Shown here piece by piece: positions 4,029 through 20,140 of a stretch of DNA of 64,000 nucleotides. The stretch covers positions 4,402,001 to 4,466,000 of the forward strand of contig NZ_PYFT01000001.1 in the NCBI RefSeq assembly GCF_003023845.1, given 5' to 3'. The stretch's first letter is position 1, and each line of letters begins with the position of its first letter. The position numbers and the translations under genes are program-made. Source of the stretch: Adhaeribacter arboris. Lineage in GTDB: Bacteria > Bacteroidota > Bacteroidia > Cytophagales > Hymenobacteraceae. The notes under the pieces were generated by a model. That model did no database searches. It saw nothing but the letters and a program-made list of their open reading frames with translations, and was not told the origin of the DNA.

Positions 4029-4970
4029 TTATTCTTCCGCTTCTTTTTTGCCATTTTGCGAGGAATTCTTTCTGGCTTTTTCTAAGGTTTCCCTTAGTTG
4101 CTGATTCAGCGATTCGCCCCCTTTAATAGCAAAGTCCAAAGTCCGAATGGGAAACGGAATCTGAATATTGCCGTTATCGAAAGCTTTTTTTATTTTAATA
4201 ATTGCCGCGCTTTTCGCGTATACGTAATCGGTTTGGCGTTTATACTGAATCCAGAACCGCACCAGAAAGTTAATCGAGCTATCCCCAAACTCGTCGTAAA
4301 CTACTTCTACTTCGCGGTTTTCCACCATTCCTTTTATTCCGGTTACGGCATCTTTTACAATGCTTTGCACCCGCTCCAGATCTTCGGCGTACGATACGCC
4401 CATACGTAAATCAATGCGCCGGATACCGTAGTGGGAATAATTAACCATGGGGCTTTCAAATACTTTGCGGTTGGGCACTTTTACCAATTCACCGGTTACT
4501 CGCCGCAAATCAATGGTGCGCATGTTGATGCGCTCAATGGTACCAAAAAAATCATTTGTTTCAATTACATCGCCTACCCCAAAGGGTTTACGCACGGCAA
4601 TGATTACCCCCGAAATAAAGTTGGCCGCAATATCCTGAAAAGCAAAACCTAAAGCCAAGCCAATAATACCTACCCCCGCCAGCATGGTAGTTACCGTTTT
4701 ATCCAGCTTAAGAATAGTGAGGACAAAGAAAATTCCTAACAGCAAGGTTCCCGTTTGCACGAGCGTAGCAAAAAGATTATTAAGAGCGGCACTATGCGAT
4801 ATACGGGGTAATAACTTCTCGGTGAACCGACGAACCTGTTTGGCTACGTAATACGTGATAAACAATAAAATAAGGGCAATTACCATATTGGGCAGCATCA
4901 GCACAAACTGCCGCATCCATATCTCTAGTTTTTTAATTAGTAAACCTAAGGCCGCTTCTAATTCGCTCAT
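4029..4970 (-). CDS. Small-conductance mechanosensitive channel, MscS family
   Basis: A 313-residue inner-membrane channel with three hydrophobic segments: residues about 20-42, 68-88 and the pore-lining TM3 around 95-125. TM3 has the Gly/Ala-rich pattern LAGVGIIGLALGFAFQDIAANFISG, quoted here as its parts AGVGIIGLALGFAFQD and ANFISG. The MscS beta domain follows with PFGVGDVIE and VPNRKVFESPMVNYS, and the C-terminal alpha-beta domain ends near RTLDFAI. These channels open under membrane tension to release solutes during osmotic downshock. It starts 4 bases after the DUF2007 gene stop, so the two form an operon. Confidence 0.92.
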   Translation of the reverse strand: MSELEAALGLLIKKLEIWMRQFVLMLPNMVIALILLFITYYVAKQVRRFTEKLLPRISHSAALNNLFATLVQTGTLLLGIFFVLTILKLDKTVTTMLAGVGIIGLALGFAFQDIAANFISGVIIAVRKPFGVGDVIETNDFFGTIERINMRTIDLRRVTGELVKVPNRKVFESPMVNYSHYGIRRIDLRMGVSYAEDLERVQSIVKDAVTGIKGMVENREVEVVYDEFGDSSINFLVRFWIQYKRQTDYVYAKSAAIIKIKKAFDNGNIQIPFPIRTLDFAIKGGESLNQQLRETLEKARKNSSQNGKKEAEE

Positions 4971-4974
4971 ATAT

Positions 4975-5394
4975 TTATAATTCCATTATCCAGTTATAGC
5001 CGCAATTCCGGCAGTTAAACCGCCGTACTTTTATGCCGGTTGTTCCCGAGGTGAATAGATTACGCAGAAAAGTTAGAATCGATTGATTTGGGGTTTTTAC
5101 TTCTTCTACCTGACGGGAATGACAGTTGGGACATTGATCGGCTTGTAAATCGGGCGATGTTGCTAAGTCGGTAAAGGGCTCGCGGGTTTGGATAATGGCT
5201 AAAGCCCGCTCCTGATCGGTTTCCATTACTTGTAAGCGCACGCCCCCGTAAGCCATATACAAATAAGGCTGATTAGTAAGGGTATGTTCATCGGCAATAA
5301 AAGCCGGAATACCTTCCGCTTCCAGGCGGCCTCGCATGATTTGCGCTTTTACCGCATCCGGGAAAGTGGCAATCGTCATTAGTTTATTTGCCAT
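4975..5394 (-). CDS. DUF2007 protein with C-terminal zinc ribbon
   Basis: A 139-residue cytoplasmic protein. The first 65 residues match DUF2007, a putative signal-transducing domain: MTIATFPDAVKAQIMRGRLE, then GIPAFIADEHT and GGVRLQV. The C-terminal half has two Cys pairs, CPNC near residue 98 and CRNCGY near 131, that would form a zinc ribbon. Partners and ligand are unknown. It is the first gene of a two-gene operon with the MscS channel, 4 bases apart, which suggests but does not prove a role connected with the channel. Confidence 0.8.
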   Translation of the reverse strand: MANKLMTIATFPDAVKAQIMRGRLEAEGIPAFIADEHTLTNQPYLYMAYGGVRLQVMETDQERALAIIQTREPFTDLATSPDLQADQCPNCHSRQVEEVKTPNQSILTFLRNLFTSGTTGIKVRRFNCRNCGYNWIMEL

Positions 5395-5489
5395 ATAGCG
5401 CGTGGATAAACCTCTTCAGCTAACCAAGTAGTAAGGAAGTAAATATTTAATAATCAGAATTGTACTACAGAATATAAGGTAAAAATATT

Positions 5490-6512
5490 TTATCCCCATA
5501 CCTTAGTGCCTTCCGTACAGTTTTTGCACATCTCTACCTGGCTTCTGGATTGTAAAACCGCCTGCCGGAATGTAGTGTAATGAGCCCCTCGCCATAACGA
5601 ATGGAAAGCTTCTTTTTTTAAATCGCCCATCCGGTAATCCGCGTCTTTATCAAAACAACACGGAACCACTAAGCCGTCCCAAGTAATAACGCAGGAATGC
5701 CACATGCGCCAGCAATGATTTAATAATTTATTTTTTATCTGGTAACTACCATCCCCGTTGTTCTGGTAACGCGAATAATAATCAATGGTAGGAATAAGGG
5801 GAGAGCCTTGGGTGTAATTATAGATTTGAGCCGTTTTGAACCAGACACCATCTACTTCTAATTCTTTTGCTAATTGTTTAATGTCTTTTACTTGATGTTC
5901 GTTGGGCCGCACTACCAAAAACTGGAAAACCACAAAAGGCGTTTTCGATTTTAATTGTTTCTTCCATTTCATCAGGTTATGGGTGCCTTCCAGTACTTTT
6001 TCTAAGCTGCCGCCTACCCGGTAAGCCTGGTACGTTTCCTGGGTAGTGCCATCGATGGAGATAATAAGCCGGTCCAGACCGGATTCTACCGTTTTCCGGG
6101 CGTTTTCATCGGTTAAATAATGTGCGTTAGTAGAAGTAGCCGTGTATATTTTTTTTCGGGCAGCATACTTCACTAATTCTAAAAACCGGGGATGCAGGTA
6201 AGGCTCCCCCTGAAAATAAAAAATTAAATAAAGTAAATTCTGGTGTAGTTGATCAAGAGTGTTTTTAAATAAATCGTCGGGTAACATACCAGTTGGGCGG
6301 GTAAAAGACCGCAAACCACTGGGGCACTCCGGACAGCGTAAATTACAGGAAGTAGTAGGCTCAAACGAAATACTTATCGGGCTACCCCAGTGCCTTGCTT
6401 TTTTTGTCCATTTAGAAAGTACATAGCTACCGGCTACCCGCCCCATATTACCTAACCGTCGCCAGGTTAGTTTAGATAGTAAATTCAGAGTGTCCGTTAA
6501 TTTTCCGGTCAT
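5490..6512 (-). CDS. Radical SAM enzyme with SPASM domain
   Basis: The radical SAM cluster motif C-x3-C-x2-C is at C56, C60 and C63 (CNLRCPECPSG). The barrel follows with GEPYLHPRF and TSTNAHYL. The C-terminal SPASM-type cysteines are visible in CWRMWHSC, PCCFDKD and CKNC near residues 278, 293 and 330, which would hold one or two extra iron-sulfur clusters. SPASM enzymes mature peptides or modify proteins and small molecules. No precursor peptide is evident nearby and the gene stands alone, so the substrate is unknown. A 1 kb gap lies upstream. Confidence 0.88.
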   Translation of the reverse strand: MTGKLTDTLNLLSKLTWRRLGNMGRVAGSYVLSKWTKKARHWGSPISISFEPTTSCNLRCPECPSGLRSFTRPTGMLPDDLFKNTLDQLHQNLLYLIFYFQGEPYLHPRFLELVKYAARKKIYTATSTNAHYLTDENARKTVESGLDRLIISIDGTTQETYQAYRVGGSLEKVLEGTHNLMKWKKQLKSKTPFVVFQFLVVRPNEHQVKDIKQLAKELEVDGVWFKTAQIYNYTQGSPLIPTIDYYSRYQNNGDGSYQIKNKLLNHCWRMWHSCVITWDGLVVPCCFDKDADYRMGDLKKEAFHSLWRGAHYTTFRQAVLQSRSQVEMCKNCTEGTKVWG

Positions 6513-13345: not shown

Positions 13346-14746
13346 ATGGAATTTCGCGTAGAAAAAGATACCATGGGGCCGGTAAACGTGCCCGCCGATA
13401 AATATTGGGGCGCGCAAACCGAGCGTTCGCGCAATAATTTTAAAATTGGTCCGGAAGGCAGCATGCCCAAAGAAATTGTGTACGCGTTTGCTTACCTGAA
13501 AAAAGCCGCCGCGCACGCTAACCTGGAACTGGGCGTATTGCCGCAAGATAAATGCGATATCATCAGCCAGGTGTGCGACGAAATTTTAACCGGTCAGCAC
13601 GACCATGAATTTCCGCTGGTAATCTGGCAAACCGGCTCGGGTACGCAAAGCAACATGAACGTAAACGAGGTAATTGCCAACCGGGCGCACGTGTTACTGG
13701 GCGGTTCTTTAAACGACGAAAAAAAGCAAATCAATCCCAACGACGACGTAAATAAATCGCAGTCGTCGAACGATACTTTCCCAACTGCGATGCACATTGC
13801 AGCTTACAAGCAAGTAGCCGAAATTACTTTACCCGGTCTGCAAACCCTGCGCGATTCGCTGCAACGCAAAGTAGCGGAATTTAAAGACGTCGTAAAAACC
13901 GGCCGCACGCACTTTATGGATGCTACCCCGCTTACCCTGGGTCAGGAATTTTCGGGATACGTGCAGCAAATAGATAACAGTATGCGGGCGGTTAAAAATG
14001 CCTTGGAAGTAGTAAAAGAGTTAGCGTTGGGTGGAACCGCTGTAGGTACCGGCCTGAATACGCCGCAAGGTTACGATGTATTGGTAGCGCAAAAAATTGC
14101 CGATTTTACCGGTTATCCGTTTGTAACTGCACCTAACAAATTCGAAGCTTTAGCTGCCCACGATGCTATGGTAGAATTATCGGGCGCTTTAAAACGTACT
14201 GCCGTTTCCCTGATGAAAGTAGGAAACGATATCCGGATGCTTTCTTCGGGCCCGCGTAGCGGCATCGGCGAAATTATTATTCCGGATAACGAGCCGGGTT
14301 CCTCCATTATGCCGGGTAAAGTGAATCCCACCCAGCCGGAAGCTTTAACCATGGTTTGTGCTCAGGTAATGGGGAACGATGTAGCCGTATCGATTGGTGG
14401 CTCGATGGGTCATTTTGAATTGAACGTGTTTAAACCTTTAATTGCAGCCAATGTACTGCAATCGGCCCGGTTATTAGGCGATGCTTGCGTATCGTTTACT
14501 CAAAAATGTTCTGATGGCATCCAGGCCAACCACGAAATTATTCAGCGCCACTTAGAAAATTCGTTAATGCTGGTAACCGCCTTAAATCCGCACATTGGTT
14601 ACTACAAAGCCGCCGAAATCGCCAAAAAAGCGCACAAAGAAGGCACTACCTTGCGTCAGGCCGCTATCTCAACCGGCTACGTCACCGATGAGCAGTTTAC
14701 CGAGTGGGTGCGCCCGGAAGATATGACGGGCAGTTTGAAAGGTTAG
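13346..14746 (+). CDS. fumC: Class II fumarate hydratase
   Basis: A full-length 466-residue fumarase C, which interconverts fumarate and malate in the citric acid cycle as a tetramer without an iron-sulfur cluster. Seen: [12 protein letters not shown] near the start, [14 protein letters not shown] near residue 97, [10 protein letters not shown] with the catalytic His, and the signature [13 protein letters not shown] near residue 317. The C-terminus ends [11 protein letters not shown]. It is monocistronic, with a terminator 86 bases after the stop. A displaced copy of its last ten codons and of the terminator region is found 2.7 kb downstream. Confidence 0.98.
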
Positions 14747-14863
14747 ACCATAGACGACAATCCATAGTCCACAGAAGAAGGATTCAGATAGACGATGGGC
14801 GATAGTCCATAGAAAAAATAGAAGTAACAATAAAAAAGCGGCCTTTATGGAGGCTGCTTTTTT
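14717..14863. repeat. fumC 3' end and terminator, repeat copy 1
   Basis: The last 30 bases of fumC, the gtccatag-rich spacer and the terminator form a unit that recurs at 17437-17547. The coding 30 bases match at 26 positions, and both units end in a hairpin built on aaaaaagcggcct. Confidence 0.65.
14832..14863. terminator. Terminator after fumC
   Basis: aaaaaagcggcct pairs with aggctgctttttt around a short loop (ttatgg), with A-runs and T-runs on the two sides, so it can serve both fumC and the converging LytTR regulator gene. Confidence 0.8.
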
Positions 14864-14930
14864 AATTACTAAAAGCTTATTTATCTAACAACGAACAACG
14901 AACAACTAACAATCAATAACCAACACCTAC

Positions 14931-15635
14931 TTACACCCCAATACTTTTCTCCACGTCTTCCCGGTAATTTCGGCCGATGGGAATCTGGTAAGTGCCTATG
15001 ACAATCCGATTCCGTTCGATGCGCTTAATGGTTTTAGTTGCTACGAGAAAGGATTTGTGCACCCGGATGAAAAGAGCTGACGGAAACATTTCCTGCACCA
15101 TTTTTATGGACCCTTTAATAACAATTTTTCCTTGTGCGGTATGAATAATCGCATAATCTTTTAGTCCTTGAATATGGGTTACCTCACTAAAGTAAAGTTT
15201 AATTTTGTTTACCCCGCTTTTTACGAAAATAAATTCCGGAGCAGGGTCCCCCGAATCCAATTGAGTGTCTTTGTTTTTAAGGGAAAGAAAGTCTTGCACC
15301 TTATCCATTGCAATGGAAAACCGCTGAAAGGAAATCGGCTTTAATAAAAAGTCAATGACTCCTAGCTCAAATCCTTCAAAAGCGTAATTACGGTAGGCGG
15401 TTGTAAAAATCGTGAGAGGCGGATCGGACAGCTTCTCCAGGAACTCAATTCCGGTTATTTCCGGCATTTCTATATCCAGTAATAATACATCCGCTTTTTG
15501 ATTTTCTAAATAATGTAAAGCCTCACGGGCTTTGCTAAATAAGGTTATGGACTGAATACCACTCATTTTTTTTAAGTAGTTCTCCAGTACTTCCAAAGCG
15601 AGCGGTTCATCATCCACCACCACCATACGTAACAT
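14931..15635 (-). CDS. LytTR-family response regulator
   Basis: 234 residues. The receiver domain (1-120) has the acidic pair D8 D9, the phospho-acceptor D54 in LLLDIEMPEITG, and the conserved T and K (FTTAY, LLKPIS). Residues about 135-230 are a LytTR DNA-binding domain: FVKSGVNKIKLYFSEV, then IHTAQGKIVIKGSIK and FIRVHKSFLV. Such regulators bind pairs of direct repeats. The sensor kinase gene ends 23 bases upstream, so the two are one operon. A possible target site lies in the intergenic region beyond the kinase. Confidence 0.95.
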   Translation of the reverse strand: MLRMVVVDDEPLALEVLENYLKKMSGIQSITLFSKAREALHYLENQKADVLLLDIEMPEITGIEFLEKLSDPPLTIFTTAYRNYAFEGFELGVIDFLLKPISFQRFSIAMDKVQDFLSLKNKDTQLDSGDPAPEFIFVKSGVNKIKLYFSEVTHIQGLKDYAIIHTAQGKIVIKGSIKMVQEMFPSALFIRVHKSFLVATKTIKRIERNRIVIGTYQIPIGRNYREDVEKSIGV

Positions 15636-15657
15636 AGCTTTTATTTCTTAATCTTAT

Positions 15658-16722
15658 TTATGCGAGTTCGATTACCAGCCTGGCCAGAAAGCTGTCTGTT
15701 TTATTTTCCAGGTTTAGGCTATGCCGCGCCGGATAGAGCAGTTCCAGACGCTTTCGTAAGTTGCCGAGCCCTATTCCGCCTTTACTTTTCCGGCTAACTG
15801 CAGGTGCTATTGCATTCTCGACCACCACCGTCAGGGTTGATTGATGCAGGTCGATATTCACGTTTAACCAGCCATTTTCATTTTGGGTGCTAAGCCCGTG
15901 TTTAGACGCATTTTCTACCAGAGGCAGCAATAGCAAGGGGGCAATTTCCTGCCCGTTGCAGTTTGCATTAATGTTCAAATGCATGGCTGAGTGGCCATTA
16001 AACCGGAGTTGTTCCAGTTCGAAGTAGTGGCGCAGATAAGCGACTTCTTTCTCCAGCAGCACCTTTTCAGCGGTACTATCATACAACATGTATTCCATCA
16101 GGTCGGCTAGCTTGAGCACCACCTCCGGAGCCATCTCGGATTTTTTAAGCGTTAGCGCATACAGGTTATTCAGGATATTAAACAAGAAATGCGGGTTGAT
16201 TTGGGCACGCAGAAAATCAACCTCCGCGTTTAATTTTTCTACCGTAATTTTCTGAATGAGGAGTTGCTGCCCGTACCAGTCCAGGCTTAATTTAAGGGCG
16301 AGCATTAAACCGAGATACCATAAGGTGCTAAAAAAATTGTAGGATAAAGTTCCCAGCAAACGGCTATCGCGTAGCGGGCCTACTACGTACCCGTACAAAT
16401 AATAATCAAACAAACTTTGCACGATTAAATACCCGAGCACGGAAAAAATAACCGCTGCAAAATAGACTCCATAACGCTTTTTTAAAAGAAACCGGGGTAA
16501 AAAGTACTGGAGGTTCAGGTAAGCAATCCCGATCAGGAGGCCCACCCGGCCGGCCACGCAGATAATAAAATAAGGCAAATTAGCTTTCTGAATCAGGTAC
16601 TTTTTCTCATAGATAAAGAATCCGGTAATCAGTACCCAATAGGCGCCATGAACCAAGGCGTATTTCAGCGAAACGCCGCGATTTGAAAACGGTAGTTTAA
16701 AGGTTCTATCCAGCAAATCCAT
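15658..16722 (-). CDS. LytS-type (His_kinase) sensor kinase
   Basis: 354 residues. Four hydrophobic segments span about residues 20-150, with no long periplasmic domain, so the signal is probably sensed within the membrane. The cytoplasmic part starts with a coiled region and the phospho-acceptor motif QINPHFLFNILNNLYAL, the signature of the LytS/YehU His_kinase family. The ATPase domain has the N-box PLVENASKHGL and a G-box GIGLGNLRKRL. It partners the LytTR regulator downstream. The small exported protein gene at 16959 is transcribed away from it. Confidence 0.95.
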   Translation of the reverse strand: MDLLDRTFKLPFSNRGVSLKYALVHGAYWVLITGFFIYEKKYLIQKANLPYFIICVAGRVGLLIGIAYLNLQYFLPRFLLKKRYGVYFAAVIFSVLGYLIVQSLFDYYLYGYVVGPLRDSRLLGTLSYNFFSTLWYLGLMLALKLSLDWYGQQLLIQKITVEKLNAEVDFLRAQINPHFLFNILNNLYALTLKKSEMAPEVVLKLADLMEYMLYDSTAEKVLLEKEVAYLRHYFELEQLRFNGHSAMHLNINANCNGQEIAPLLLLPLVENASKHGLSTQNENGWLNVNIDLHQSTLTVVVENAIAPAVSRKSKGGIGLGNLRKRLELLYPARHSLNLENKTDSFLARLVIELA

Positions 16723-16860
16723 CAGGATGGCGTAAAGAAGCGGTATGGGTACTAAGTACAGTATTGCTTTATTGTAAAAGAAACGAAAAGCAGGCAGGCC
16801 GCGAAATTAGATCGACCAACTACTTAAAAAGTAGATGAATATAAATAGAAGCAGCCAATA

Positions 16861-16891
16861 TCTACTATTTTGGTTGTTGGTCTACTATTTT
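16861..16891 (+). promoter_or_regulatory. Candidate LytTR operator: two 11-base direct repeats
   Basis: tctactatttt occurs at 16861-16871 and again at 16881-16891, 20 bases apart start to start, or about two helical turns. LytTR regulators typically bind two direct repeats on one face of DNA with a comparable spacing. The site lies 68 bases before the gene at 16959 and about 140 bases before the kinase gene, so it could control either or both. A palindrome ctacttaaaaagtag at 16820-16834 carries a related ctact core. Confidence 0.5.
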
Positions 16892-16958
16892 TTTGATTGC
16901 CAACGCTTTAGGTTAATTTAGGATAAGAAATTTAAAAATTTACTTAAAAATTAACCTT

Positions 16959-17417
16959 ATGAAAAAGATTAAAATGAATCAGGCGTTTATCAAGCTATTT
17001 ACGCTGCTAATTTTAGGCTTCACGGCCTTTAGTTTCACTCCTAAGTTTGGGCTGGACAGTTACTCGATTTATTTGAATGATAAACTCATTTTAAAACAAT
17101 GGGTAAACCAACCTTTAGACTTAAGGGTGCTCGCGCTGCGGTCGGCCCAGGAAACCGATCAACTCCGCATCCATTATAACCATTGTACTATCAAAAACGG
17201 CGCGGGCACGAGCCGGAGCGTAGCGCTGCAGGATAAGAAAGGGAAAGTAGTAAAAAAATGGGAATTTGCCGATGCTACCGGCTCGAATTTAACCATGACC
17301 ATCGCCGTAAAAGAACTACTGCAACTAGAAAAAAAACACGCCAACCAGGAACTTAGTCTGGTCTATACCGCCCGGGAATTGCCAAAAGGAGAAATGCTTT
17401 CTATGCTTCGGTTTTAA
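16959..17417 (+). CDS. Small exported protein beside the LytTR/LytS pair
   Basis: 152 residues with a signal-like hydrophobic start (residues 10-28, ending near TAFSF). The mature part is rich in beta-strand residues (GLDSYSIYLNDKLILKQW, DQLRIHYNHCTIKNG, LSLVYTARELPKG), with one Cys in HCTIKNG. I do not recognise a family; similar short exported proteins next to LytTR pairs occur in this phylum. It is divergent from the kinase gene and has the direct-repeat site in its upstream region, so regulation by the pair is a reasonable inference. Confidence 0.7.
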   Translation: MKKIKMNQAFIKLFTLLILGFTAFSFTPKFGLDSYSIYLNDKLILKQWVNQPLDLRVLALRSAQETDQLRIHYNHCTIKNGAGTSRSVALQDKKGKVVKKWEFADATGSNLTMTIAVKELLQLEKKHANQELSLVYTARELPKGEMLSMLRF

Positions 17418-17436
17418 TGGCATTGCTTGTTGTCGA

Positions 17437-17466
17437 GAAGATATGACCGGAAGTTTGCAGGGTTAG
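17437..17466 (+). pseudogene. fumC 3'-end relic
   Basis: Thirty bases encode EDMTGSLQG and a stop, against EDMTGSLKG at the end of fumC, with 26 of 30 bases identical. Two of the four differences are silent third-position changes (Thr and Gly codons) and two fall in one Lys-to-Gln codon, so the relic looks like a diverged fumC rather than a fresh copy. Upstream of it no further fumC sequence is found; it begins 19 bases after the stop of the preceding gene. Confidence 0.65.
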
Positions 17467-17515
17467 TTATTAGTCGATAGTCCATGGTTGATAGCCCACA
17501 GAATAGAATTATTTA

Positions 17516-17547
17516 AAAAAAGCGGCCTTCGAGAAGGCCGCTTTTTG
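17516..17547. terminator. Strong terminator
   Basis: aaaaaagcggcctt pairs with aaggccgctttttt-like sequence across the loop cgag, giving a 9-base perfect stem flanked by an A-run and a T-run. It can end transcripts from both sides, here those of the exported protein gene and the DUF416 gene. Confidence 0.85.
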
Positions 17548-17631
17548 TTGTTAAGCTGGTTATCTCCTTTATATAACTGAAAGTTTTATAATAGCGTTAG
17601 AATAGATTACTATAAACTTTGTTAAGATTCT

Positions 17632-18120
17632 TTATCTTTTTGTTACTTCTAGTTGCCGAGTCAATTCGTTTATTAGCACTGGGTGATTGATTAACTCTTC
17701 ATTTGTTAAAGTTAAATCTTGCTCAGTTAATTCAAAGTCAATTGTATCAGTAATACAAGTGCTAATGTTGAGGATATGTTCTAGTTTATAATCAGTTAAA
17801 TATTCTAGTAACTCAAGTACAGCAACACTAGCATTTAACGCGTAACTGCCATCATAATCTCCGAAGTCTTCTGTATCCGGAGTAACGGCATCAACTTTGT
17901 GAATTAACTCCTTTATTTGGGTAGGCTTTAGTATTCGATTTTGAACTGTTGAAATAACTTCTTTCAGCAGTTCAAAATCTCCCCAACCATATTTATCATT
18001 AAAGTTTTTGTAGTACGGTAATAAACGTTCACAAATATTTTTTGCAAAGTCAATAACTCGATCCCTAGGTAACTTCTGCAAATTAGCAAGTAGGTAATTT
18101 TGGAATTCAGAAGTAATCAT
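17632..18120 (-). CDS. DUF416 family protein
   Basis: 162 residues, cytoplasmic and mainly helical. Features of the DUF416 (YjaG-like) family: FAKNICERLLPYYKNF, then YGWGDFELLKEVISTV, and an acidic turn DTEDFGDYDGSYALNASVAVLELLEYL. The biochemical role of the family is unknown. It converges on the exported protein gene, with a strong terminator between them. It is alone in its transcript as far as can be seen. Confidence 0.75.
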   Translation of the reverse strand: MITSEFQNYLLANLQKLPRDRVIDFAKNICERLLPYYKNFNDKYGWGDFELLKEVISTVQNRILKPTQIKELIHKVDAVTPDTEDFGDYDGSYALNASVAVLELLEYLTDYKLEHILNISTCITDTIDFELTEQDLTLTNEELINHPVLINELTRQLEVTKR

Positions 18121-18199: not shown

Positions 18200-19750
18200 C
18201 TAATCTAAACCACCTTTACGGGTAGGCTGCCGTGGCTCCGGCCAGGTACCCGGTTGCCCGGTTTGCGGATTTATAGGTAAAACACTTTTATCCCGTGGTG
18301 TTTTATTCGGGTCTTCGCTCGCCATATACGCCAGAATAGCCGTTAAAATGGCGTTGCTGCGCACATCGTCAAAAACAATTTTATCGTAAGTGTCGCGGTT
18401 GGTGTGCCAGGTGTAGGTGCCGTACGACCAGTTTAAAGAACTCAAAGAAAACGCGGGTACTCCCGCCGCCACAAACGAAGCAAAATCCGAACCGCCGGTG
18501 CCCGGCGCACCCGGAAAACTGGTTTGAATGGGCGAGCGGATTTCTTCGGGCACTTGGGTTAACCAACGACCCAAATATTCATACGAATGTAGAAATCCTT
18601 GTCCCGCTAAGTTTACCACGCGGCCGGTGCCATTGTCCTGGTTAAACACCGCTTGCACGTTCGGCACAATTTCCGGGTGATCGGCCACGAAAGCGCGCGA
18701 ACCGTTTAAGCCTTGTTCTTCGCTGCCCCAGTGTCCTACCAGAATGGTGCGTTTCGGGCTCGGGTACACTTTCTTTAAAATGCGCATGGCTTCCATCATG
18801 GTTAAGGTGCCGGTGCCATTATCGGTGGCGCCGGTGCCGCCGTCCCAGGAATCAAAATGCGCCGACAGAATAACGTATTCGTTGGGTTTTTCGGAGCCTT
18901 TTATTTCGGCAATGGTGTTAAAAGTGGGTACTATGCCCTTTTCTTTCGCCTCGGTTTGTACCCGGATTTTTGGTTTGTGGCCGGATTCGGTGAGGCGGTA
19001 AAGCAAGCCGTAATCTTCCAGCGAAATATCGATGGTGGGTATTTTTTTGGTGTAAGCCGAAAATATTTTATTCACGCCAAAGCCATTCGACCAGTTACAG
19101 GTAACTACGCCGGCTGCCCCGGCTTTTTCCAGAGCTACGGATAAACTACGTGCTGTGCGACCGGTTTTATTAATGCGGTTTCGCCAAGCCTCGGTTTGGG
19201 CCGCACGGTCGGCTTTCATTTTCTCGAAAGATTCTTTTCTGGCAAACTCCTGCCAGTTGTAATCCGGCCGGCCCGTGGGTTGGTTCATCGAAATCAATAC
19301 GAATTTACCTTTTACGGTCGGCAACCATTTTTTAAATTCTACAGAATCGGCGATGTCCGGAATAATAACCAGCTCGGCGGTAACCGCTTTTTTCATGCCG
19401 GGGCTCCAGGCTAGTTGCATGCCTTCCAGCGATTCGGTCCGCGGATATACCAAGTCGATGTGCGAAATACCCCGTTGCCAGCCGCGCCATTCGCCCCATT
19501 TTTCGTTATGCGCGTTTATGTTCCACTCTTTGTATTTGGCTACTGCCCAATCGTTGGCTTGTTGCATTTGCGGTGTACCCACTAACCTCGGACCAATCAC
19601 ATCTACTAATTCGTGCGCCAGCTTTTCTAATTGTGAATTTTCGTTTGCTTCTTTCACGATAGCTTCTACTACGGGGTCTTTGGTTTGTGCCACCGCAAAG
19701 CTGCCCCAAAAAAGGAAAGGCAGATAAAATAAAATAACTCTTTTTTTCAT
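18200..19750 (-). CDS. M28-family zinc peptidase
   Basis: 516 residues from ATG at 19750, which opens a signal peptide (MKKRVILFYLPFLFWGSFAVAQ, ending at AVAQ); an ATG 63 bases further upstream would put a long extension before it. A PA-like insert (about residues 120-260) is followed by the catalytic domain with zinc ligands in AHFDSWDGGTGATDNGTG and WGSEEQGLNGSRAF, then NQDNG, GGSDFASF and WHTNRDTYD. Such enzymes are exported aminopeptidases or carboxypeptidases with two zinc ions. It is monocistronic. Confidence 0.93.
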   Translation of the reverse strand: MKKRVILFYLPFLFWGSFAVAQTKDPVVEAIVKEANENSQLEKLAHELVDVIGPRLVGTPQMQQANDWAVAKYKEWNINAHNEKWGEWRGWQRGISHIDLVYPRTESLEGMQLAWSPGMKKAVTAELVIIPDIADSVEFKKWLPTVKGKFVLISMNQPTGRPDYNWQEFARKESFEKMKADRAAQTEAWRNRINKTGRTARSLSVALEKAGAAGVVTCNWSNGFGVNKIFSAYTKKIPTIDISLEDYGLLYRLTESGHKPKIRVQTEAKEKGIVPTFNTIAEIKGSEKPNEYVILSAHFDSWDGGTGATDNGTGTLTMMEAMRILKKVYPSPKRTILVGHWGSEEQGLNGSRAFVADHPEIVPNVQAVFNQDNGTGRVVNLAGQGFLHSYEYLGRWLTQVPEEIRSPIQTSFPGAPGTGGSDFASFVAAGVPAFSLSSLNWSYGTYTWHTNRDTYDKIVFDDVRSNAILTAILAYMASEDPNKTPRDKSVLPINPQTGQPGTWPEPRQPTRKGGLD

Positions 19751-20140
19751 GTAAATAACCTGAATTATACGCGAACAGATAAAAGCCGAAGGTACAGAAT
19801 TAATTAAAACCAATTTTCATCTGCCTTTATTCAACTGAGTACAATTATTCTTGCGCAGCGCTTTCGATATGTAACCCCTACCGTAAATTGAGTGCGTTCT
19901 AATTAACTCCGGATGCTTCTTAGCAACAGTTTTTCACCACTTCCTTAAATCTAAAAAAGCGCCTATCAAAGAAATATAATGTAGCGCTTAAAGTGTAAAA
20001 TCCTTATCTTGTTTTTTTAAAAAGAACCCTTTTGTTAAGTTTGCCCAAAGAAACACATGTTTTTTTAAGGCTGCTTTAGGTTAAGGAAGAAAAGTATTCA
20101 TTTAGGTCATTTGCTACTAGCTACTTAAACTTTTAAAACT
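19751..20140. other. Divergent intergenic region, nothing further assigned
   Basis: This 390-base region separates the leftward peptidase gene and the rightward oxidoreductase gene, so it should contain both promoters. I cannot pick out a convincing promoter box or operator by eye. Confidence 0.4.

Follow-up and report, generated by a model that had tools for sequence, protein, structure and literature searches.

How did the 3' end of fumC come to lie twice in one genome, once on the gene itself and once 2.7 kb downstream, with a complete regulatory set between the two? We examined this locus in the genome of Adhaeribacter arboris (7,248,201 bp), within an analysed stretch of 64,000 nt, hereafter the window, whose numbering is used for all positions. 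Eight genomes of the genus were searched, namely that of the window (G000) and seven relatives (G001–G007). The features of the locus are listed below.

13346–14746, plus strand: fumC, class II fumarate hydratase, 466 aa (NCBIfam TIGR00979 above cut-off; Pfam Lyase_1 and FumaraseC_C)
14717–14746, plus strand: tail 1, the final nine codons and stop of fumC (match within the window and genome pattern search)
14747–14831, plus strand: spacer 1, with a dispersed AGTCCATAG-type phrase (genome search; aligns along most of the G007 fumC spacer)
14832–14863, plus strand: terminator 1, a GC-rich hairpin between A and T runs (sequence, RNA fold)
14931–15635, minus strand: LytTR response regulator, 234 aa (Pfam Response_reg and LytTR)
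15658–16722, minus strand: LytS-like sensor kinase, 354 aa (Pfam His_kinase, PF06580)
16861–16891, plus strand: TCTACTATTTT as a direct repeat with a 20-nt period, between the divergent genes (11/11 here)
16959–17417, plus strand: small protein, 152 aa, probably exported, with a hydrophobic N-terminus (sequence reading)
17418–17436, plus strand: 19 nt from the exported-protein stop to tail 2, possibly the left arm of that gene's former own hairpin
17437–17466, plus strand: tail 2, displaced copy of the fumC 3' end, EDMTGSLQG-stop (window match, genome pattern, family pattern)
17467–17514, plus strand: spacer 2 (17437–17553 aligns to the G003 fumC tail, 117 nt, 78.6%)
17515–17547, plus strand: terminator 2, likely positional counterpart of the single fumC terminator of G007 (alignments, RNA fold)
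17632–18120, minus strand: DUF416 gene, between terminator 2 and the M28 gene (Pfam DUF416)
18200–19813, minus strand: M28 peptidase gene, likely the old downstream neighbour of fumC (Pfam PF04389; adjoins fumC in G007, beyond the set in G003)

The 3' end of fumC (GAAGATATGACGGGCAGTTTGAAAGGTTAG) recurs as the original prediction had described: positions 14717–14746 and 17437–17466 agree at 26 of 30 bases, on the same strand and in frame. The ten codons of which the prediction spoke comprise nine sense codons plus the stop. The two silent changes that it reported (ACG/ACC and GGC/GGA) were found, and the other two differences share one codon, in which AAA becomes CAG and Lys becomes Gln. The next best match to either 30-mer on both strands of the window reached only 19/30. 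A joint tail pattern with up to three mismatches fitted these two places alone in the 7,248,201-bp genome, and its reversed control fitted none. About 3.5e-5 matches of at least 26/30 would be expected by chance in the whole genome if bases are assumed independent. Chance recurrence of the 30-base match elsewhere in the genome had been named as a refutation; there was no further match within three mismatches. An exact 18-nt piece of tail 2 does recur elsewhere, at chance level (E 0.065). Across 204 genomes of the family, a degenerate DNA pattern for EDMTGSL(K/Q) hit six places in five genomes, which were five fumC ends and tail 2. No displaced tail beyond that of the window was seen in the 204 genomes, in only five of which the pattern fits the fumC end itself. 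The recurrence of the tail is confirmed as a true feature.

The repetition was also said to include the spacer and the terminator. This part of the claim stood when taken jointly with the tail, as the joint unit is homologous to the fumC tails of relatives; the spacer phrase alone is weak evidence, being a dispersed repeat. A query of 17431–17555 gave 52 matches in the genome, most of them within query positions 31–89. The TTAGTCGATAGTCCATGGTCGATAGTCC-type phrase was seen at 17467–17510, at 14747–14831 and at about 40 further intergenic places. Six of these phrase loci were read; they look intergenic, and the phrase sometimes occurs in both orientations. Both terminators fold as hairpins, and a consensus terminator scan listed neither of them.

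The genes between the tails were as predicted: a Response_reg plus LytTR protein, a His_kinase protein and the 152-aa protein. The set is about 2.5 kb long in both the window and G003. The 152-aa protein is probably exported, judging from its sequence, and had no match in Pfam, NCBIfam or the PDB. Positions 16723–16958 form the divergent promoter region between the kinase and exported-protein genes and carry repeat boxes. The TCTACTATTTT boxes scored 10/11 in G003 and 9/11 in G005 and at locus L191, and were weaker in G001 and at L193; they were not found at L192 or L194–L198. A score of at least 10/11 was reached by 12 of 2000 shuffles. Promoter repeat boxes are common to the genus and two loci of other families. 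The repeat resembles LytTR binding sites and is a candidate for one, and LytS, LytTR and the exported protein together would form a self-contained regulon. Known LytS/LytTR two-component systems likewise combine a kinase and a regulator with direct-repeat boxes in a promoter region shared by divergent genes; unlike in those systems, the partner here is a small protein that the three databases did not recognise.

We then compared the fumC locus among the relatives. Downstream of fumC, G007 has a single tail, spacer and terminator, and the M28 gene comes about 600 bp further. The G007 fumC region shared only chance matches of 14–20 nt with the set. G007 is the only one of the seven relatives with an uninterrupted fumC target, from which the set was either always absent or has been lost. 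In G003, the set and then a second terminator stand between fumC and M28. The distance from fumC to M28 is about 22 kb in G004, in another arrangement, and about 9 kb in G002; the two genes lie on separate contigs in G001 and G005, and the incomplete assembly of G006 gave no close M28 match. Each of the eight genomes carries one close fumC. G006 also has a 19-residue fumC start (G006:C668:3-59) at a contig end of its fragmented assembly, which is probably an assembly edge.

The expectation that DUF416 would directly follow fumC in relatives failed. DUF416 gave no hit in any of the seven fumC regions (7.7–10 kb each) or in wider stretches, and the neighbour in G007 is M28. Because DUF416 is present in the window but has no match in the relatives' fumC regions, the DUF416 gene may have entered the interval from terminator 2 to M28 as a second insert.

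To ask which tail is original, we compared the tails with those of relatives; several of these comparisons, and the tail tree, left out the tails of G001, G005 and G006. BLASTN of 17418–17640 against the fetched stretches aligned 117 nt (17437–17553) with the G003 fumC tail at 78.6%, 56 nt with the second terminator region of G003 at 89.3%, and two pieces with the G007 tail, one of 87 nt at 82.8% and the other of 49 nt at 81.6%. The 3' half of the G007 spacer, together with terminator and flank, scored 87 against tail 2 and 42 against tail 1, compared with 50 and 57 against the two G003 copies and 19–27 against the six phrase loci. When the hairpin and flank were removed, the same half scored 46 against tail 2, 24 against tail 1, and 16 against each G003 copy. 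Because terminator 2 and its downstream flank resemble the single terminator and flank of G007, they look like the counterpart of the uninterrupted locus, that is, the original displaced by 2.7 kb.

The tail 1 unit aligned with the G007 tail over its full 147 nt at 69%. In a search of the eight genomes it matched five, G001, G002 and G006 being the exceptions, and it matched the G003 fumC tail at the terminator only. We took the duplication to span tail, spacer and terminator in full, 110–150 bp. Recent copying of tail 1 was considered but not supported, since tail 2 plus its spacer gave scores against the G003 and G007 fumC tails that equal or exceed its score against tail 1. A mosaic within fumC was also sought; sliding identity showed no clear break. 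The G007 spacer might also be a hybrid formed when the set was lost precisely: its 3' half is tail-2-like, but its 5' half scored 34 against tail 1, compared with 25–43 against six unrelated phrase loci, and the spacer of tail 1 aligns along most of the G007 spacer. In G003, the second terminator is clear though the second coding tail is unrecognisable against fumC tails (shuffle p 0.09–0.96). Its comparison with the window copy was borderline (p 0.006 at 75 nt; 0.28, 0.035 and 0.12 at 26, 40 and 60 nt). Dating both tails by tree, as had been proposed, failed, with bootstrap values of 25–44 on the relevant branches.

The right-hand joint was examined from the side of the set. A strong hairpin lies 3' of the exported-protein gene in G005 (L051, after 9264) and at L191 of another family (after 612); the folds reach −27.7 kcal/mol over 70 nt and −30.8 kcal/mol over 90 nt. 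Its left arm is alike in the two: no shuffle of 1000 was as good at 40 and 60 nt, and p was 0.24 at 26 nt. No such hairpin is present in G001, where 90 nt fold at −8.1 kcal/mol, and G003 has a possible arm remnant, with p 0.008 for 40 nt and close to 0.06 for both 26 and 60 nt. In the window, the 19-nt stretch after the stop showed no significant resemblance to the G005 arm (p 0.09–0.45) and none to that of L191. The post-stop stretch of the window resembled its G001 counterpart, with an overlap into tail 2 (p 0.34 at 26 nt, 0.001 at 40, 0.002 at 60 and 0.004 at 75), so part of it could be native to the set. This resemblance may be chance, as about thirty such comparisons were made, and the match of the same stretch to fumC tails is far stronger (0/500 shuffles). 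That the set gave up a hairpin of its own in favour of the fumC terminator is no more than suggestive.

The explanation we prefer is an old insertion, of which the locus would be the scar and in which the fumC 3' end was duplicated. It starts from the two copies, the uninterrupted order in G007, the occurrence of the set elsewhere, and the resemblance of terminator 2 and its flank to those of G007. Under this explanation, the LytS/LytTR/exported-protein set would have entered the gap between fumC and M28, with the 110–150 bp unit of nine codons, stop, spacer and terminator then flanking it on both sides. A circularised fragment carrying the fumC 3' end and the set may have integrated by one crossover in the fumC tail, and the joint before tail 2 may have been made by end-joining. 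The copy on the fumC side would have kept the gene whole while the original terminator moved 2.7 kb, where it now probably ends the exported-protein transcript. We propose a single crossover with a circle because target end, insert, target end and old flank are its expected product. None of the fumC and set loci in the eight genomes showed the donor order, fumC joined to the set without duplication.

This kind of event has been described for lacZ in Escherichia coli, where 56 of 60 clones gave a duplication PCR product and the 14 sequenced had duplications of 109–950 bp (PMC3240628). They are explained there by molecules missing part of the homologous end, probably linearised, partly degraded and re-circularised (PMC3240628). 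The original prediction of an insertion with tail duplication is supported by the G007 order and the likeness of terminator 2 and its flank, although loss of a tandem fumC, which it also offered, gives an equal end state. We lowered our confidence because of the resemblance to G001 and the conflict among gene trees described below, and now give the insertion about an even chance of being right.

Loss of a tandem fumC would mean that a second copy was deleted save its final codons, spacer and terminator, with the set already between the copies or inserted later. It would leave an identical end state, and a distant lyase paralogue (41% identity) exists elsewhere in the genome, though not in tandem with fumC. 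However, apart from the 19-residue piece in G006, one close fumC per genome is the rule in all eight genomes; the tail follows the exported-protein stop after only 19 nt, and no further fumC sequence was seen in this gap; and duplication, insertion and exact deletion would all be required. We regard this history as unlikely. Template switching during replication is quite unlikely in our view. Here a fork halted at the fumC terminator would have used the set at another place as its template and then resumed at a point further upstream, so that the tail was copied twice. Template switching would require neither mobility genes nor repeats at other loci, and the two terminator hairpins suit it, but the window genome now has one copy of the exported-protein gene, and this history makes no prediction here that would distinguish it from a single crossover.

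Site-specific integration would make the two tails attL and attR at the fumC 3' end, with an integrase lost later. An in-frame duplication that keeps the gene whole is known from islands in gene 3' ends such as trmE (PMC8409611). Against this, homology continues through the spacer and terminator, which rules out a short attachment core, and the duplicated unit of more than 100 bp likewise exceeds a transposon-type target duplication (a few to about 15 bp). In the eight genomes, the contig with fumC gave no tyrosine recombinase match (E 0.001) closer than 200 kb to the gene, though in G001, G005 and G006 it does not extend that far on both sides; the nearest integrase match in the window genome is about 0.5 Mb from fumC. 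Moreover, the set occurs at other loci without a flanking repeat, and the window's tail is the sole displaced one found by the 204-genome pattern, with its fit to the fumC end in only five. We consider site-specific integration very unlikely. Finally, dispersed phrases and a common terminator type might merely stand beside a coincidental 30-base match. The dispersal of the phrase and the similar hairpins that terminate fumC in G004 and G002 speak for coincidence, but the expectation of 3.5e-5 was calculated before strand, frame, order and nearness are considered, and the genome pattern, the 204-genome pattern and the BLASTN matches to relatives' tails all disfavour it. We find this scarcely credible.

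The age of the proposed insertion was approached through gene trees. The sets of the window and G003 are 81.3% identical and grouped with 0.999 support; between the same genomes, M28 is 85.8% and GFO 79.1% identical. A pairing of G000 with G004 and of G003 with G007 is backed by an aspartase-like gene and the GFO gene. For 15 reading frames of the window genome from two regions, the best match was G004 in 11, G007 in four and G003 in none. Against the pairing, purB and its surroundings show their highest similarity between G004 and G007 (82.4%), and the trees of the two genes flanking the insertion disagree: that of fumC pairs G004 with G007, whereas that of M28 pairs G003 with G007 but separates G000 from G004. 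The set is present in one member of each species pair. A correct pairing would therefore mean either one old insertion that was later lost twice, in G004 and in G007, or transfer of the locus.

The exported protein was found in four of the 204 family genomes, each time with adjoining LytS and LytTR genes. The set adjoins fumC in G000 and G003 and lies at unrelated loci in G001 and G005. In G001 and G005 the set is complete, at about 80% identity, and homology stops at its borders; no direct repeat flanking the set was seen in the 700-nt outer flanks of either. A set without a second tail had been named as a refutation. Such sets do exist in G001 and G005, but at other loci. The window genome has a single copy of the exported-protein gene. 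In a wider draw of 390 genomes of the order, nine from four families had the exported protein. Outside the genus, eight loci were read from seven genomes, five of them without a LytS or LytTR match; the L191 locus starts at a contig end. The distribution of the set is patchy. A cassette without mobility genes might move between species, lodge behind genes by capturing their terminators, duplicate 3' ends and give up its own hairpin; we consider this general picture improbable.

The lacZ integrations resemble the fumC case in that the insert is flanked by a duplication of the locus, 109–950 bp there and about 111–147 here. They differ in being a laboratory observation (PMC3240628), whereas the fumC case would be an old diverged scar whose donor was not found in the eight genus genomes. 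Homology-facilitated illegitimate recombination likewise combines one homologous and one illegitimate joint; its products generally lose recipient DNA (PMC3240628), while the fumC locus carries a duplication. Islands at gene 3' ends, such as those at trmE and dusA (PMC8409611), also have the 3' end on both sides of the insert. Unlike at these islands, no integrase was found at the fumC locus, and the duplication reaches through the spacer and terminator. Nothing on this locus stood out in the literature searches made.

The locus looks like a scar of an ordinary kind and not like a new genetic system, and it leaves knowledge of recombination unchanged. If the insertion reading is correct, the locus would preserve in legible form the addition of a regulatory set downstream of a housekeeping gene that stayed intact. 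The duplicated 3' end would have kept fumC and its terminator whole and probably given the newcomer a terminator. Short copies of gene ends can mark old insertions in which no mobility gene remains.

A scan of genome contigs gave 80 loci at up to 82% identity, and records very near the window genome may be absent from it. In the G003 assembly (L030), the LytS and LytTR genes carry frameshifts, that in LytTR at an A-run of 7 versus 8. Decay and sequencing error are both possible, and we did not call these genes pseudogenes. At L194 and L195 (about 4700–6300; another family), the divergent neighbour resembles the membrane part of LytS followed directly by a LytTR domain, an arrangement that is perhaps a one-protein version of the system.
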